DNA of 64,000 bases from Pseudoxanthomonas indica (lineage in GTDB: Bacteria; Pseudomonadota; Gammaproteobacteria; Xanthomonadales; Xanthomonadaceae): assembly GCF_900167565.1 (NCBI RefSeq), contig NZ_FUZV01000001.1:434001-498000 (forward strand), read 5' to 3'. Every line of letters starts with the position of its first letter. Within the stretch, counting starts at the first letter, position 1. The notes beneath the pieces are model-generated. The model saw only the letters and a program-made list of their open reading frames with translations. It was not told where the DNA came from and ran no database searches. Made by a program: the position numbers and the translations under genes. Shown here in pieces: positions 1 through 63,844 of this stretch.

Positions 1-1300
1 TGAGGCGGTCGAACTGCAGGTAGTAGCGACCGCAGTCGAGCAGGTCGAAGGAGTAGTCGTAGTTGGGCGATTCCAGGTTGAACAGCTGGCGGAAATTGTT
101 GAAGCAGCTGTCCATCGGATCCCGGCGCAGGCAGATCATCCGCGCGTTTGGAAACACACGCGCAATGAAGCCGGCGTAGAGGAAGTTGTGCGGCAGTTTG
201 TCGACGAAGTGCGGGGTGTGGCCGGTGCCGGGCCGGGTGCTGGCCAGGTAAGCCTGGCCGAGTGCGCGCCAGTCGATGCTGCGTCCGCGCAGTTGCAGCA
301 GCACCTCGTGCAGCGAACGCGCGCGCAGGCCGGCTTGCGCCTGCACGGCCACGGCGAAATGGTTCAACTCGCCGGCCGAGTGCACGCTGCCGTGCGAGGA
401 CAGGATGCGATCCACCAGCGTGGTGCCGGTGCGCGGCAGGCCGAAGACGAATATCGGCTCGGCCGAATCGCTGCCGTCGGTGTCGGGCGGCGGCTCGGGG
501 AATTGATCGATCACGGCCTGGAACATCGCCGCGTCCCGCGCACTGTCGTAATTGAGGCGGGTGCGCCACGCCGCCTTGCCCTGGCTCAGGTGTGCGAATG
601 CCTGGCGCGGGTCGCCGAGATCATCGAACTCCTTCTCCAGCGCCATGTTCACGCACAAGGCGCCTTCGACGTCATTGCCGATCTGCGCGAGTGCGTTCTG
701 CCAGCGCGCCACATGGTTGTCGGCCGGTGTCTGCCGGCGCAGTTGCGAGAGCGACAGGTAGGCCTTCCAGTAGCGCGGCTGCAGGCGCAGGCAGGCTTCG
801 TATTCGCGCTCGGCGCCTTCGACGTCGCCAACGAAGGTCAGGGTCGCGGCGAGGTTGAAGCGCAGGCGCGGTTCGTTGGGCAGGCTGGCGACGCCGCGTT
901 GGAAGGCTTGTGCGGCGCGTTCGGCTTCGTGTGCCTGGGTGTAGATGACGCCGAGGATGTCGAGCACCATCGGGTCATCAGGCTGGCCGTTGCTCAACGC
1001 CAGTGCGCGATCAGCTTCGGCCACGGCTTCGCGTTGGCGATGGATGGTGGCGAGCAGGCGGGCGAATTGGGCGGCGTAGTCGGCGCGTTCGGGATTGAGT
1101 CGGGTCGCCTGCGCCAGGTGTGCGTGCGCAGCGTCCATGCGCCGCAGTTGCAGCGCCGCCACGCCGGCGACGAAGTGCACGCCGGCATGTTGCGGAAAAG
1201 CGGCCGACAGCGGCTGCGCCAGCCGCAAGGCCCCCGCCCAGTCGCGCCGGTTGAGCGCGTCTACCGAAGCTCGGTAGATCCGGGCGGGGTCCTGGCTCAT
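1..1300 (-). CDS. TPR-repeat sulfotransferase family protein (C-terminus beyond window)
   Basis: About 433 residues are visible; the 3' end runs off the left edge. The N-terminal 250 residues are alpha-helical TPR-like repeats with the usual A..L..A spacing. They are followed by a sulfotransferase domain whose PAPS-binding loop is visible as FGLPRTGTTLVDRILSSHG, with a later RVFPNARMICLRRDPMDSC segment typical of the 3'-phosphate-binding strand. TPR-sulfotransferases of this build are common in proteobacteria; the acceptor is usually unknown. The ATG at 1300 lies four bases after the GumN-like stop, so the two are probably cotranscribed. The family assignment is firm; the substrate is not inferable. 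Confidence 0.85.
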   Translation of the reverse strand, partial: MSQDPARIYRASVDALNRRDWAGALRLAQPLSAAFPQHAGVHFVAGVAALQLRRMDAAHAHLAQATRLNPERADYAAQFARLLATIHRQREAVAEADRALALSNGQPDDPMVLDILGVIYTQAHEAERAAQAFQRGVASLPNEPRLRFNLAATLTFVGDVEGAEREYEACLRLQPRYWKAYLSLSQLRRQTPADNHVARWQNALAQIGNDVEGALCVNMALEKEFDDLGDPRQAFAHLSQGKAAWRTRLNYDSARDAAMFQAVIDQFPEPPPDTDGSDSAEPIFVFGLPRTGTTLVDRILSSHGSVHSAGELNHFAVAVQAQAGLRARSLHEVLLQLRGRSIDWRALGQAYLASTRPGTGHTPHFVDKLPHNFLYAGFIARVFPNARMICLRRDPMDSCFNNFRQLFNLESPNYDYSFDLLDCGRYYLQFDRL

Positions 1301-1303
1301 GAC

Positions 1304-2275
1304 TCAGGGCTTGCAGGTCGAGCAGAGGCGCTCGACCTTGTATCCCTTGGCGCGCAGCTTTTCCACCACGCCATCGCTGCCGAGCAGATGCAACGCGCCG
1401 ACCACCACCAGGGTGTTGTCGCGGCCCGGTTGTTTGAGCCGTTGCTCGATCTGCGGCAGCCAGTGGTTGTTGCGATCCACGTTGATGCGTTGATACAGGC
1501 GCGGGAATTCACGCTTGAGTTCCAACGCCGTTTCGCGCCAGATGAAATCGGCATCGCCGTTGCGCCAGGCGCGGTGCAGGCGTTCGGTGTATTCCGGGCC
1601 CTTGTCCGCTTCCTCCAGCGACTGCTTGACCAGCTGGCGCTGTTCCTGCGCATCCATGCCGTCGAGCAGGCCAATCTGCTCCGCCGCCTTTTCCAGGCCC
1701 ATCGCAGGCTTGCCGGCCTTGCGCGCCTTGTCCATGAAGTGCTGATCCAGGCCCAGTTTCGGGTCCAGGCCCTGCTTGCTCATTTCCACCAGGCTGATGG
1801 TCAGGCCGACGAACCAGGTTTCGAACATCGACAGTGCTTCGGGCGGCATGGCATTGCGTTGACCCCAGGCCTGCAACTGCGTCCAGGTGTCGGTGCCCAG
1901 TTCGTTGGCCAGGCTGCTGCCGTCACGGCGCAATGCCGCTTCCATTATCGCCTTGCGCAACTCGGGCGATTCGGCTTCCTCGGGCGAGATTTCCAGCATC
2001 AGCGAGCTGGCGTCGGCAAAGGCGGCTTCGGCTTCCTTGGACAACGGATAGTCGGTGGCGCGCAGCATGTGGAACGAGCCGAGCAGATAGACCGCGTTGT
2101 CGGCATCGGACACCTTCCACAGCAACGGCACCGGAGGCACGTATGCCGCCTGCTGCGCCTGCGCGGCCTTCGCCTGCGTGGCAGCCGCCTTGGCGGCAGG
2201 AACCTGTGCGAAGGCCGGCACGGCCAACGCGACCAGCAGCATGCCTGCGACTCGACACTTCCAGGTGTGGCTCAT
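1304..2275 (-). CDS. TraB/GumN family protein
   Basis: A 323-residue protein with an N-terminal signal peptide (hydrophobic stretch ending AVPAFA-Q). It matches the TraB/GumN family (PF01963 type): the start motif YLLGSFHMLR and the C-terminal GALHLLGSDGVVEKLRAKGY are the family's two conserved histidine-containing segments. Members resemble Tiki-type metalloproteases; gumN itself sits beside the Xanthomonas xanthan cluster but has no settled role. An in-frame TTG at 2281 is too close to the GAGGAG ribosome site, so ATG 2275 is preferred. Likely periplasmic or surface-associated. It lies between a DUF1684 lipoprotein and a TPR-sulfotransferase with minimal gaps. Confidence 0.85.
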   Translation of the reverse strand: MSHTWKCRVAGMLLVALAVPAFAQVPAAKAAATQAKAAQAQQAAYVPPVPLLWKVSDADNAVYLLGSFHMLRATDYPLSKEAEAAFADASSLMLEISPEEAESPELRKAIMEAALRRDGSSLANELGTDTWTQLQAWGQRNAMPPEALSMFETWFVGLTISLVEMSKQGLDPKLGLDQHFMDKARKAGKPAMGLEKAAEQIGLLDGMDAQEQRQLVKQSLEEADKGPEYTERLHRAWRNGDADFIWRETALELKREFPRLYQRINVDRNNHWLPQIEQRLKQPGRDNTLVVVGALHLLGSDGVVEKLRAKGYKVERLCSTCKP

Positions 2276-2288
2276 CGGCAACGGCTCC

Positions 2289-3257
2289 TCAGGATTTCTT
2301 CTGCTTGGGCGGGAGGTATTGTTTCTCGCCGGCGGTGATGGCCAGGTCCAGCCGGTTTTCCGGCGGCGGCAAAGGACAGGTGGCGAACGGCGTGAACGCG
2401 CACGGCGGGTTGTAGGCCTGGTTGAAATCCAGCGTCACCTTGCCATCGACCGGCGCCGGCGCATCCAGGAAGCGCCCGGCCGGATAGCTGCCGTGACCGC
2501 TGGTGCGATCGGCCAGCACGAAGAACAACTCGCCGCCGGGTTCGCCCAGCGCTTCGAGCCGGTAGGTCTTGCCGTCGCGCTCGAACTCCACCGCGCCCGG
2601 ATTGGGCGACGGCGTGACCACGCTGATGATATCCATGATCGGCAAGGTCTTGCCGGCCGGATGCGGAATGTAACGGGCCTGCACCTGCCAGCTCGGGTCA
2701 GCGTCCCAATAGCCGATGCCGGTGAACTGCAGGCGGCTGGGCGCATCGGCATGCTTGACCCGCAGATAGTGGCGATCGCCGCGCTCAATCACGCTGAGCA
2801 GGCCCTTGCCCTCGTCGAAGCCAATCACGCCGGGCGTCGGCTGGCGATCATCGGCCAGATCGATCGCCTTGGTCAGCGGCTCGCCATTGAAGGTCACTGG
2901 CACACCCTTTTCCGGAGTGAAGCGCACATGGCCCACGCCATCGGTGATCATGCCGAGCTTGTCCGGCCCCACCGCCAGGCGGATGCCGCTGCCGGGGCCG
3001 GTGCCGACGTAATGCGCCTTGAGCTGGATCTGGTGCAGCCCGACCAGGCTGGTCCAGCCATCCGGCCGCAGCAGATCATCGCGCCGTTGCGCGCGCCAGT
3101 CGTTCTGCGCGACCAGGAACGCCGGATCCAGTGCCGGCTTCTGCTCCGCGTGCTTGTTGTCGTCCTGCCCGCAGCCGGCCAGTACCGCGGCGATGCTTAC
3201 CAGCAGCACCGCCAGCGTGGTCTGTTTCCGCCTGCTCGATGTTGTCGCTCGACTCAT
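2289..3257 (-). CDS. DUF1684 domain lipoprotein
   Basis: A 322-residue protein with a clear lipobox (VLAGC, Cys29) after an N-terminal hydrophobic stretch, so it should be a lipid-anchored envelope protein. The body matches DUF1684 (PF07920 type): [20 protein letters not shown] near the start and the Cys-rich [20 protein letters not shown] near the end are its signature segments. The biochemical role of the family is unknown. The start at 3257 gives a 4-base ATGA overlap with the mutL stop; a start further upstream would run into mutL. Part of the leftward amiC-mutL run. Confidence 0.85.
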
Positions 3258-4966
3258 CCGCCTGCCCCATCCATTTCGTTCAAGGTCCATCGCCGCACCA
3301 GCGCGGCGTCCCCGGCCGCGTCGGCATCGCTGCGCTCGATATCGCGCAGCCAGGCGTTCATTTCGGCCACCGTCAGTGCGCGCTGCGGCAGCGGCAGGTG
3401 CGTGGCCAGGGTCTGCAATAGTGCCTGCTCGGGCGCGTCTTCGGGCAGTGCCAGCAGCGCATCGATCAGCGCAGGCAGATCGGCGTCAATCAGCAACGCC
3501 GGTACCTGTCGCAGCTGCACCTCCTGGTCGCCGGTGCGCTCCAGCACCACCGCGACGGCGGCCAGCCGGCTGACCATGGCTTGCGCGCGTGCGGCGCGTT
3601 CGCCATCCACCCGCAACGGCAAAGGCAACAGCAGCGGTTGTGGGCTCAGGCCGACGCCGGCATGCGCGGTGCGCAGGCGCAGCAGGCTGGCGCGACGATG
3701 CGCCTCGTGCAGATCGATGGCGAGCAGGCCGCGGGCATCCTGCGCCAGCAGGTAACGCGCATGCAGGATCGCCAAGGCGTGGCCGAGCGGGGGCAGCGAT
3801 TCGTCCGCACGCGGCGGATGCGGCGCCGGTAACCCCGCACTGACGCTGGCCTCGCCGTACAGGGCCACATAGAAGGCGCGGGTGTCCTCCACTCGGCCCG
3901 GCGACAATGCAGGCAACGCGTGGCCGCCGTGAGCGTGCAGATCGCGTGGCATCGCCATGGCCGCGGCGTGCTGCGCGCGGCTGTCGGCCAGGGCTTCGCG
4001 CAAGGCGCCCAGCACGAAGTCGTAAATCAGGCGCGCATCGCGAAACCGCACTTCGTGCTTGGCCGGATGCACGTTCACGTCCACCCGCAGCGGATCCAGT
4101 TCCAGGAACAGCACGTAAGCCGGCTGCCGGCCATGGAAGAGCACCTCCTTGTAGGCGCTCTTGGCGGCATGGCCGAGATGGCGATCGCGCACGGCGCGGC
4201 CATTGACGTAGAGATACTGCTGATCGCCCAGCGCGCGCGAATACGGCGGCGCGCCAATCCAGCCGTGCAGATGCAGGCCACTGGCGCTGTGTTCGATGCG
4301 CAACGACTGGCCGAAGAACTCCGGCCCCAGCGCCTCGGCCACGCGCGCGCCCGGGTTGTCGGCTTCGGCCCGATAGCGGCGTGCGGGCTTGCCATCCACC
4401 GCCAGCCGCAGATCGATACGCGGGCGCGCCAGCGCCAGCGAGCGCAACCACTCTTCGATATGACCCAGTTCGGTGCGCGGCGCGCGCAGGAACTTGCGCC
4501 GCGCCGGCACGTTGTAGAACAGGTCACGCACTTCCACCGTGGTGCCGATGGCATGCGCCGCCGGCGCCACGGCCGCCGCCTTGCCGCCATCCACGCGCAG
4601 CACCGCGCCATGCGCATCGGTGGCGCGGCGCGAGCTCAACGAGAAGCGACTGATCGAGGCGATCGAGGGCAAGGCTTCACCACGGAATCCCAAGGTGGCT
4701 ACCGCTTCCAGATCATCCAGCGAGGCGATTTTGCTGGTGGCATGCCGTGACAGCGCCAGCGGCAACTCTTCGGCGGCGATGCCGCAACCGTCATCGCGGA
4801 TCCGGATCAGGCGGATGCCGCCCTCTTCCAGATCGATGTCCACTCGCCGCGCGCCGGCATCGAGCGCATTCTCCACCAGTTCCTTGACCACCGACGCCGG
4901 CCGTTCCACTACCTCGCCCGCGGCAATCTGGTTGATCAAGGTGTCGGGCAGCGGGCGAATCGGCAC
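3254..4966 (-). CDS. mutL: DNA mismatch repair protein MutL
   Basis: A 570-residue MutL. The GHKL ATPase motifs are intact in order: [48 protein letters not shown] and [14 protein letters not shown]. The C-terminal dimerisation domain lacks the DQHAxxE metal-binding endonuclease motif (the equivalent stretch reads [15 protein letters not shown]). That matches the MutH-type, non-endonuclease MutL of gammaproteobacteria, although in this family MutH itself is usually absent. The start is taken as GTG at 4966, giving (M)[17 protein letters not shown], the normal N-terminus; the longer upstream reading crosses the hairpin-rich spacer and resembles no MutL. Downstream it overlaps the DUF1684 gene by four bases. 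Confidence 0.96.
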
Positions 4967-16609: not shown

Positions 16610-16735
16610 GGGGCTGACTCCAGTGGTGGAAACGTGGGGAGGATCATCCATTGTTTCGTTTTCGGGATAAATATGGCGAACTGTCACAGGTTGTTCTACT
16701 GGCGAAACTAATGCTCCGCCACGCCAGGCTCGCCT

Positions 16736-16790
16736 TGTAGGAGGGGCTGACCAGACATGCGTCTGTTAAAGGCCAGCCCCGAAGCCAGGA
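16736..16790 (+). repeat. REP-like element with internal hairpin, copy 1
   Basis: A TGTAGGAGGGGCTG start and CAGCCCCGA end form the outer stem (GGGGCTG/CAGCCCC), as in simple xanthomonad REPs. Between the arms lies a second hairpin CAGAC-ATGC-GTCTG plus a TTAAAGGC spacer. The copy is followed by GAAGCCAGGA, which is also present in copy 2. Same sense as copy 3 (22527-22573) and inverted relative to copy 2. Confidence 0.85.
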
Positions 16791-16875
16791 ACCCAAGCCG
16801 CATTCCACATCCACACTCAGTCCCCAGGTCGACATAAGAACTTTGCAATGGCAGGTAATCGGGTCTCTCCGAGTT

Positions 16876-16932
16876 TCCTGGCTTCGGGGCTGGTTTTAAA
16901 CAGACGCATGTCTGGTTAAGCCCCCTCCTACA
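16876..16932 (-). repeat. REP-like element with internal hairpin, copy 2 (inverted)
   Basis: Read on the minus strand it starts TGTAGGAGGGGGCTTA, keeps the internal CAGAC-ATGC-GTCTG hairpin and closes with CCAGCCCCGAAGCCAGGA. With copy 1 it makes an inverted pair separated by 85 bp, able in principle to form one long cruciform or RNA stem upstream of fdxA. Confidence 0.85.
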
Positions 16933-61297: not shown

Positions 61298-62092
61298 TCA
61301 GTGCGCTGTCAGTCGTTTGCGCGTCAACAGCTGCTGCCACGGGAACGCCCACTGCGCCAACGGCGCCGCGGCGGCGACCATACGCAGGCGTGGGTGATGC
61401 AGCATGCGATAGCGCGCCAGCGGAATCCGCTCCTGCCCGGCCAGCATGCGCCGCAGCCGCCACGGGGGGCTGGACCAGGGATAGCCGGGATTGCGTCGCC
61501 AGTCGCCGAACAGGCGGTGCGAGTGGTATTCGTGCAGCACGAACGGATTGGGCGTGGCCAGGAACAGATGCCCGCCCGGGCGCAGCACGCGCAACAACTC
61601 GGCAATGAAATGATCGCGGTGGCGTTGGGTGCTGATGAACTCCAGCACGGAGACGCAGGTGACCAGATCGAAGCTGTGGTCTTCGAACGGCAAGGCATGG
61701 CCGGAGGGCACATGCTGGAAGCTCAGACGCGCCGGATCCAGCTGGTACGACTGTGCCCGAACGCGCGCGGCCTGCAGGGTGGAGGCATCGGCATCGATGC
61801 CAATCACCTGGCGGGCGCCGAGCGAGGACAGGGCCAGGGCGACCGAGGTGCCGCCGGTGCCGCAGCCGACGTCGAGGATGCGTTCGGCCCGGTCGACGTG
61901 GTCGACCAGGGTGCGGCAGAGGCCGCTGGCGTGCATGTCGACTCGGCCGATTTCGCGCTCGAGGAATCTGTCGGAGACGTGCGAATCCTGGTCGGAGTCG
62001 TACTCGCCGTTGGTATGGGAATCGTGGATGTCGCGGCGGGCTGCACCGCCTTGAATGAGGGCGATGAACTGCGAACGATAGGGTTCGTCCAT
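61298..62092 (-). CDS. SAM-dependent methyltransferase (Methyltransf_11 type)
   Basis: A 264-residue class I methyltransferase. ILDVGCGTGGTSVALALSSL binds SAM, QVIGIDADASTLQAARVRAQ is motif II, FDLVTCVSVLEFISTQRHRD is motif IV, and LLRVLRPGGHLFLATPN motif V. A start at 62137 (15 residues longer) is possible. It lies 50 bp upstream of the flippase and may methylate a sugar or lipid intermediate. Its promoter must lie in or next to the palindromic repeat region. Confidence 0.85.
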   Translation of the reverse strand: MDEPYRSQFIALIQGGAARRDIHDSHTNGEYDSDQDSHVSDRFLEREIGRVDMHASGLCRTLVDHVDRAERILDVGCGTGGTSVALALSSLGARQVIGIDADASTLQAARVRAQSYQLDPARLSFQHVPSGHALPFEDHSFDLVTCVSVLEFISTQRHRDHFIAELLRVLRPGGHLFLATPNPFVLHEYHSHRLFGDWRRNPGYPWSSPPWRLRRMLAGQERIPLARYRMLHHPRLRMVAAAAPLAQWAFPWQQLLTRKRLTAH

Positions 62093-62236
62093 GGCTCGGG
62101 GGATCCATGTGGTCGGGGGATGACCTTGAGACGGCATGGCTCGCGATAAGCGGACACGACTTTGTGTGACAGGCGACGAACGGCGATCCCATGCAGCCGG
62201 TTTGGCGCTGGACGAAAGTCATGTTCTGCTTTTGTG

Positions 62237-62297
62237 TCGCGTGAGGCGGGCGGTGGTTGCTCGCGTGAGGCGGGCGGTGGTGCTCGCGTGAGGCGGG
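62237..62297 (+). repeat. Direct repeats of about 23-24 bp, 2.6 copies
   Basis: TCGCGTGAGGCGGGCGGTGG plus TTGC (62237-62260), the same core plus TGC (62261-62283), and a partial TCGCGTGAGGCGGGG (62284-62297) that runs into the left arm of palindrome A. No spacers, so not CRISPR. Confidence 0.85.
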
Positions 62298-62395
62298 GCC
62301 AGGCCCCTGCTGATCGGGCCTGGAATCCACATGGCCTCGATCGGGAACTCTACGTGCAAGGGCTCCAGTCCCGATCAGCAGGGGCCTGACCCCGC
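62293..62395 (-). repeat. Palindromic element A (26-bp arms, 51-nt conserved loop)
   Basis: Left arm 62293-62318 (GCGGGGCCAGGCCCCTGCTG, then ATCGGG) pairs with right arm 62370-62395; 25 of 26 positions match. The 51-nt centre (62319-62369), read on the minus strand, begins ACTGGAGCCCTT and ends in GGATTCCAGG. It matches the centre of element B in 46 of 51 positions. Oriented opposite to B. Confidence 0.93.
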
Positions 62396-62495
62396 CCGGA
62401 CAGAGCACCTTTGTTCTGTTGAAAGCAGGTGGTCTGCTGGCCGGCTTTGGCTTGCTCGGCTCGTGCTGTTCGATCAGCCACCACGATGTGTCGAG

Positions 62496-62600
62496 AGCGG
62501 GGGCAGACCCTGCGCAACCGGGACTGGAGCCCTTACTCGTAGAGTTCCAGGTCGAGGCCATGTGGATTGCAGGCCCGGTTGCGCAGGGTCTGCCCCCGCT
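62496..62600 (+). repeat. Palindromic element B (27-bp perfect arms, 51-nt conserved loop)
   Basis: Left arm 62496-62522 (AGCGGGGGCAGACCCTGCGC, then AACCGGG) pairs perfectly with right arm 62574-62600. The 51-nt centre (62523-62573) begins ACTGGAGCCCTT and contains GTCGAGGCCATGTGGATT. Compared with element A the arms agree at only 17 of 26 positions but remain fully paired, whereas the centre is conserved. Confidence 0.93.
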
Positions 62601-62652
62601 CACAAGCCATGACACCCGCTCTTGCCAGCAGGCCTGCAACCCAGCCAAAACC

Positions 62653-63723
62653 TCAAGGACTGTCCTTGACCGCCTGCTCGCATTCGCGCGGCGCCGCCTG
62701 CGGCAGCGGCTGTACCCTGCGCTTCCACGCACCGCGTATCGCGCGCATGGCCGGTTTTTCCACCAGGCGGTTCATGGCAAAGGCCAGCAACAATGCAAAG
62801 CCCATCGCCAGCGCCACGGCAACCAGCGCAGGCACACCCAGCTTTTCCAGGTAGAAGATCACCACGAAGCCAATGGCCTGATGCACCAGGTACAACGAGT
62901 AGGAAATATCGCCCAGGAACGCAAACACCCGCCGATTGAGGAAGCGCAGCCAGCCCGCCGTGAACGCGGTGAACACCGCGCAGCAGAACACCGCCACGGC
63001 CAGGAAGATCGGCCGCTCGCCCACCGCGATAGCCAGCAGGCACAGGGCGATCATCAGCACGTTCAAGCGCCACTCTTGCGGACGCTGGCGCAGGCGGTAG
63101 AACAGGATGCCCATCGCGAAGAACGGGATGAAGCGCAGGATCATCAACTCGCGAAGCGCATACGAAAAATGCACCTGGTGCTTCTCGCACAGGCCCTCGA
63201 TGGCCGCCAGCACCAGCCAGGTGGCGATGATCCAATGGATGCGCTTGAGCTGCCCCAGCAAGAACCACATCAGCATCTGCACATAGAAGAACAGCTCGAT
63301 CTGCAGCGTCCAGTACGAACCATCCAGATGCTCGAAGCCCAGGAACTCCTGCACCATCGTGTAGTTGGACAGCAGGTCGCGCAGCGGCAGCTGCTGGATC
63401 GGCAGGCCGATCGTGTACACCACCAGCGCGGTCAGGCTCAGGCCCGTCCAGTAGGCCGGGAACAGCCGCGAGAAGCGCGAGACCACGAAATCCATCGCGG
63501 TGCGGGTGCGCTCCAGGGTCATGAAGATGACAAAACCGCTGATCAGGAAAAACAGCTGCACGCCGTACTTGCCGGCCAGCAGGTCCAGCGGCATCCCGCC
63601 GACATGGCCTATCTGCTCCGAATATCGCGTTGTGTAGTGGTAGGCCATGACGGCCACCGCGGCCAGTCCGCGTAAGGCATCCAACTCCACTACACGCGCA
63701 GATGGCGAGTTTTCCTGAACCAC
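62653..63723 (-). CDS. OafA-type membrane O-acyltransferase
   Basis: A 356-residue acyltransferase-3 family protein (PF01757 type) with about ten membrane helices. VVELDALRGLAAVAVMAYHY carries the RGxA and His motif at the N-terminus. GVQLFFLISGFVIFMTLERT (with FFxxSGF), ISYSLYLVH and the C-terminal VEKPAMR are also present. Such proteins O-acetylate O-antigens and exopolysaccharides. GTG 63723 is chosen because the conserved N-terminus starts there; longer forms cross the palindrome at 63790. Monocistronic, preceded by repeats on both sides. Confidence 0.9.
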   Translation of the reverse strand: MVQENSPSARVVELDALRGLAAVAVMAYHYTTRYSEQIGHVGGMPLDLLAGKYGVQLFFLISGFVIFMTLERTRTAMDFVVSRFSRLFPAYWTGLSLTALVVYTIGLPIQQLPLRDLLSNYTMVQEFLGFEHLDGSYWTLQIELFFYVQMLMWFLLGQLKRIHWIIATWLVLAAIEGLCEKHQVHFSYALRELMILRFIPFFAMGILFYRLRQRPQEWRLNVLMIALCLLAIAVGERPIFLAVAVFCCAVFTAFTAGWLRFLNRRVFAFLGDISYSLYLVHQAIGFVVIFYLEKLGVPALVAVALAMGFALLLAFAMNRLVEKPAMRAIRGAWKRRVQPLPQAAPRECEQAVKDSP

Positions 63724-63789: not shown

Positions 63790-63844
63790 AAAAACGGGGT
63801 CAGATCGCCATTTGCGAAGTAAATGGTGCTCTGACCCCGTTTTT
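63790..63844. repeat. GGGGTCAG-type palindrome between acyltransferase and GT4
   Basis: Arms 63790-63813 and 63821-63844, starting AAAAACGGGGTCAGA and ending TCTGACCCCGTTTTT, pair in 22 of 24 positions around GCGAAGT. The GGGGTCAG/CTGACCCC termini recur as a dispersed element in xanthomonads, and the T-runs allow termination on either strand. It fills the gap between the divergent acyltransferase and glycosyltransferase genes. Confidence 0.88.

Follow-up and report, generated by a model that had tools for sequence, protein, structure and literature searches.

Two oppositely oriented DNA hairpins in a 64,000-nt stretch of the Pseudoxanthomonas indica genome (the window) belong to a real, ordered and lineage-specific family of repeats, which has the build of REPIN and BIME elements and lies outside the strict REP definition. 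The family is probably a lineage-specific, non-autonomous REPIN/BIME-like repeat, recognised as folded single-stranded DNA and putatively mobile.

Two inverted hairpins form a composite unit

The L and R hairpins are opposite in orientation, separated by 97 nt, and together make up one composite unit (496k). Its features, in window coordinates (contig coordinates minus 434000), are as follows.

61298..62137, − strand: methyltransferase gene (PF08241), 5′ end facing L
62291..62397, − strand: L hairpin (element A), 28-bp arms, 51-nt centre, 26/28 paired
62369 (A) and 62319 (G), − strand: kept A.G mismatch of L, one base at each side of the stem
62398..62494: spacer of the composite unit, read by eye
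62485..62492, + strand: GATGTGTC, inner foot of R
62495..62601, + strand: R hairpin (element B), 28-bp arms, 51-nt centre, 28/28 paired
62523 (A) and 62573 (G), + strand: kept A.G mismatch of R, one base at each side of the stem
62602..62607, + strand: ACAAGC, outer flank of R, found in 5/6 intact units and absent from 1163k
62653..63720, − strand: acyltransferase gene (PF01757 in the stretch scanned), 3′ end 52 bp from R

These coordinates bear out the preliminary description of two inverted palindromic elements with arms that still pair and centres alike at 46 of 51 positions, the loops of L and R agreeing at 90% of 51. The unit contains a 103-nt inverted repeat (62293-62395 against 62497-62599, 78% complementary, 101 nt between), each half of which is itself a hairpin. 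A DNA fold of 62280-62612 gave z = -13.7, with none of 100 shuffles as good. L and R are the only two hairpins in the window with an arm score of at least 20 and a loop of 35-65, and the same class was found once in 57 congener loci (204,380 bases).

The spacer ends recur, in varied form, in other units. GGACA adjoins L in five of the six intact units and recurs with variants, and R is adjoined by a TTCGATCAG-like stretch and a GATNTGTCGAG-like foot (by eye). Units 1355k and 380k carry the eight bases of GATGTGTC as well, in inverted form and at L's inner foot. A 24-bp tandem repeat of 2.6 copies (window 62237-62297) runs on into L at its outer foot.

Sixteen hairpins at ten loci

A DNA search of the P. 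indica genome gave 13 matches. A covariance model built from 13 hairpins returned 32 matches, namely 16 places each found on both strands, and a second model built from these 16 hairpins recovered the same 16, which lie at 10 loci. Both models have the outer stem right (27 or 28 pairs) and the inner pairs one or two columns off, an offset that can only have weakened the searches. A chance local inverted duplication, which had been held in reserve as the explanation of the window unit, is refuted by these other copies.

Six of the loci carry intact inverted pairs: 496k (the window unit), 357k, 364k and 1163k on contig C1, and 1292k and 1355k on contig C2. Locus 380k holds one R and a truncated L (by eye), and single hairpins lie at 204k and, on C2, at 953k and 1197k. 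The loops fall into classes drawn by eye, type I (n = 12), type II (n = 3) and one other, while the arms can be sorted only loosely as L or R type; those of 357k_L, for example, are nearest to those of 364k(R) (79%). A genome search with an R-type arm pattern, allowing up to three mismatches, found 24 sites, of which 19 fall within hairpins and 5 elsewhere; the reversed control gave 6. In folds of whole units, 496k and 364k prefer one long L:R stem and the other five of the seven mostly form two hairpins.

Conserved loops with changing arms, as originally proposed, hold for a core of six hairpins: the six closest have a mean identity of 89% in the loop and 69% in the arms. Across the 12 type-I hairpins the loops are 75% identical against 64-69% for the arms, and between types I and II the proposed pattern is reversed, with loops agreeing at 33-47% and arms at 49-88%. 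In the alignments used for these identities and for the counts at the hairpin foot and at the top of the stem, the row for 1292k_L is shifted by a gap; a direct count of its stem pairs 27/28.

Stem pairing, covariation and a kept mismatch

From the foot upwards, each hairpin of ~107 nt has a stem of 28 bp, a single 1x1 mismatch that is kept, an inner stem of 5 bp and an apex of ~39 nt. In the right register, 95.1% of the 446 arm cells in the 16 hairpins are standard pairs, falling to 35-52% in slid registers. Changes on both sides of a pair occur at 20 of the 28 pairs (76 cells), and none of 500 shuffles reached any of five pairing measures. The idea of stems that change and still pair is hence confirmed by covariation within this one genome.

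The position at the top of the stem is non-Watson-Crick in all 16 hairpins (A.G in 14, A.A in 1, T.T in 1). Past this one unpaired position the alignment fold shows the 5-bp inner stem, two pairs of which are compensated. Stem positions 3-28 include 18 non-Watson-Crick cells out of 416 (G.G 7, T.G 5, G.T 1, G.A 2, A.G 1, T.C 1, T.T 1), and 13 of these 18 are G.G or G.T, with C.C and A.C absent, although the mismatches are partly common by descent and not independent events. The outermost two positions add eight (G.T 3, A.C 2, T.C 1, G.A 1, A.A 1), and because of the two A.C the one-sidedness is not strict. The kept mismatch, like the bias of the other mismatches towards one side, favours the view that a single folded strand is recognised, and it may mark the structure concerned.

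Relatives and insertion sites

The preliminary description had named other xanthomonad genomes as the place to look for further copies. Sixty relatives searched with stricter filters gave weak matches at E 0.001 in three genomes only (G004, G026 and G033), over 62-74 nt. Among 37 congeners, with 103 of 1183-3480 candidates per genome scored, eleven match at E 1 and none comparably, the best reaching 46.6 bits where the type-I core of P. indica scores 103.5-116.6. The 15 matched congener loci inspected, at least one for each of the eleven, comprised shorter GTAG/GTGG hairpins, hairpins that carry a tag but differ in the loop, and unrelated sequences. A weak search by DNA of 150 relatives, with 4 candidates per genome scored, gave one outside match of 33 nt (G069, locus L015). 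Phages and plasmids gave no match by blastn, nor did IMG/VR with the exact type-I loop pattern. The same pattern had a single match among GTDB genomes, in a Fibrobacter MAG, which we judged to be chance; the P. indica genome itself was possibly left out of that set, and in both pattern searches loop types II and III lie outside the pattern.

One similar pair did appear in another genus. Of 197 other genomes of the bacterial family, with 19 candidates per genome scored, only G237 matched below E 1e-6 (53.6 bits). It carries an inverted pair of long hairpins (L186 1287-1604), with arms of 25 and 27 bp and loops of 52 and 53 nt, 109 nt apart. One of these hairpins is also present in a second species of that genus, G312 (L190 1501-1593), at a contig end, with 52/53 loop bases identical and the same gene end beside it (by eye), and seven of 40 genomes of the genus match at E 0.01. 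The score of the G237 loop against the six type-I core loops was reached in 1, 5, 19, 22, 34 and 149 of 1000 shuffles, and against the other ten loops in at least 96 of 1000. The hairpin-pair build therefore occurs beyond one species, while kinship in sequence between the G237 pair and the P. indica family is suggestive only.

Flank searches matched 38/38 and 31/38 genomes (P. indica included), and in congeners the flanking gene pieces have at most 83% identity over the whole of two pieces, with 85% in a single partial match. Half of the congener loci examined at the 364k site (14 of 28) were resolved, and these have a gene-to-gene gap of 98-109 nt and no hairpin of at least 14 bp, compared with the 344 nt spanned by the P. 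indica unit; five further matches of 554-1003 nt were judged to be in the wrong frame or strand. Of nine congener loci viewed at the 1163k site, three of them on the wrong side, two have an ordinary hairpin of the GTAG or GTGG kind in the same gap. Neither an excision junction nor a target duplication was found, and the congeners are too distant for exact junctions to be read.

Transposase genes

The preliminary description had suggested looking for Y1-type transposase genes near the copies. The P. indica genome has one Y1 gene above the Pfam cut-off, and the hairpin next to it (L023 1169-1331; arms of 25 bp, loop of 113 nt) is an unrelated one; the arm end of that hairpin resembles an arm at L060 (by eye). 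No cognate RAYT gene flanked by the family's repeat was found in the genome, and the family may for this reason now be immobile. Nor was a transposase gene recognised between the hairpins when the spacers of the seven units were compared with 29 loosely picked ORFs, the best match (E 3.5e-4 in a tiny database, 34 residues at 38%) being judged chance.

Y1 genes are present in 35 of the 38 genomes of the genus, P. indica included, and one lies between hairpins in 6 of 30 congener loci examined (L163, L166, L174, L176, L177 and L179). Like the P. indica units, these hairpins have long arms and a loop; they lie on both sides of the gene, and those of L179 (47-nt loops, 23-26-bp arms) are nearest in loop length. 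They differ in that their arms begin with GTAG, GTGG or similar, and blastn found no sequence in common with the P. indica units.

Likeness to known repeats

REPINs are doublets of REPs that form a hairpin in single-stranded DNA or RNA, with invariant ends and a more variable spacer, commonly with compensatory changes, and in dispersed copies (PMC3116915). The P. indica family shares the inverted arms around a spacer, the hairpin, the compensatory changes and the dispersed copies. It differs in that its core has conserved loops and changing arms, and each unit is a pair of such hairpins. REPs are 20-40 nt long, occur as inverted or head-to-head dimers with conserved spacers and adjoin gene 3′ ends, and that of E. 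coli has a conserved stem mismatch (PMC3733652, PMC8266576), E. coli TnpA-REP requiring a stem bulge (PMC8266576). With GTAG REP dimers and BIMEs (PMC3733652) the family has in common the inverted, head-to-head dimers with conserved spacers, the proximity to gene 3′ ends and the stem mismatch, whereas its hairpins are ~107 nt long and mostly without the tag. Ten loci are also few by REP standards.

As in REPs and REPINs, two inverted arms form one hairpin. GT[AG]G stands at the 5′ foot of 5/16 hairpins and is absent from 11/16, and since, in addition, no cognate transposase was found, we regard the family as a variant, not a member, of REP/REPIN. The preliminary description had recognised no named family, which agrees with the rarity of the tag; the build, on the other hand, is that of REPINs and BIMEs (PMC3116915, PMC3733652). 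TIR repeats of TIRYT transposases carry a GGGGWSAS motif (PMC3733652), and this occurs at the 5′ foot of 5/16 hairpins and at the 3′ foot alone in one more. Compared with those repeats by motif only, the P. indica units differ in having no transposase gene between the hairpins. Our literature search for a description of this hairpin family found none, which is not proof of absence.

Repeats of other kinds were seen in passing. A 24-bp hairpin with GGGGTCAG ends, which fit GGGGWSAS, lies beside the acyltransferase gene (window 63790-63844). At window 16735-16932 a GTAG-tagged repeat of another kind forms a long hairpin that ends in TTGTAGGAG...CTCCTACA and has small hairpins nested in it, and in a congener outer repeats AGGGCCTGTTAACGCT...AGCGTTAACAGGCCCT enclose two hairpins (L110 487-761).

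Alternative explanations

The preliminary description had offered a mobile DNA hairpin, a structured RNA or a recombination site, and of the three the first fits best, with mobility as its conjectural part. An RNA or transcription element is unlikely; on that view the hairpins would stabilise or terminate transcripts from within 3′ untranslated RNA, and the pairs would be kept by selection for the RNA fold. R lies 16-52 bp from the 3′ end of a neighbouring gene in 7/8 loci with an R (380k being the exception), as such an element might, and the both-side changes in the stems, the two compensated inner pairs and the G.T mismatches on one strand, which folds better as RNA in 11/16 hairpins, would suit it too. 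However, the G.T strand of R runs towards the neighbouring gene and is thus antisense to its read-through, and L and R favour opposite strands. On the L side a gene 5′ end is found in five of six intact units and a 3′ end in 1163k; these borders were set by ORF length and codon-position G+C, overlapping opposite-strand ORFs being chosen by G+C and eye. The two terminator-like sites in 62100-62800 (shuffle mean 0.5) both lie outside the hairpins, one of them at the acyltransferase 3′ end ahead of R. Six of seven units have no run of five T, 380k having one, and the only Rfam match in the window above the gathering score is a tRNA. A site for site-specific recombination is very improbable. Sites of the attC type also use a folded single strand with unpaired bases, and GTTRRRY is the attC box; here this motif occurs once in 3/7 units with no fixed place, and the inverted pairs lie at ten scattered loci with no cassette array seen.

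Arms kept alike by template switching or gene conversion alone, in palindromes neutral as to fold, seem quite unlikely to be the whole explanation, although arm-to-arm conversion, raised at the outset as an alternative, may contribute. In the 10 closest comparisons there are 27 both-side changes to 9 on one side (other, 1), and in the next 36 there are 166 to 56, an excess between close hairpins that such copying easily explains; the 120 hairpin comparisons are not independent, and they run from the foot inwards without gaps, so that the inner part of short hairpins (1197k, type II) may be misaligned. In unit 1292k, moreover, the L and R loops agree at 92% and at no more than 76% with any other loop (L053 2111-2426), which points to possible conversion within the pair. 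Against copying as the sole cause, the in-stem A.G mismatch position is paired in 0/16 hairpins, the ratio of both-side to one-side changes climbs with distance (3.0, 3.0, 5.0, 8.6), the course expected if compensation builds up with time, and the closest pair, 1163k(R) and 380k(R), shows no both-side change, one one-side change and one other difference. The results point both ways, and selection on the fold and arm-to-arm copying probably both act.

A model for the family

In the reading that we prefer, that of a REPIN/BIME-like repeat, a Y1 tyrosine transposase of the RAYT/TnpA-REP type, working in trans, would recognise the L and R hairpins in their folded, single-stranded DNA form; such an enzyme probably once moved the unit. 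Pairing of the arms would then be kept, probably, by this recognition together with arm-to-arm copying during replication.

A bolder and rather doubtful version is that the hairpins represent a class of large, composite, REP-like elements in which shape, rather than any tag, sets the ends. The shape would consist of a long stem free to vary in sequence, a mismatch at constant height and a short inner stem that is conserved, and one strand would be the one mainly read. This version is made less likely by the two A.C mismatches found at outer stem positions. If it were true, L and R would be a giant REP and inverted REP whose arms may drift while remaining paired, and such elements would be missed by tag-based searches and might be spread over the bacterial family, as the hairpin pair in a second genus suggests.

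The 16 hairpins in one genome are a natural data set on how sequence changes while a fold is kept. The family offers a direct test of whether recognition of a folded single strand or palindrome correction keeps arms complementary. It also suggests that there are families of REPIN build that lack GT[AG]G and would go unseen in surveys relying on that tag.
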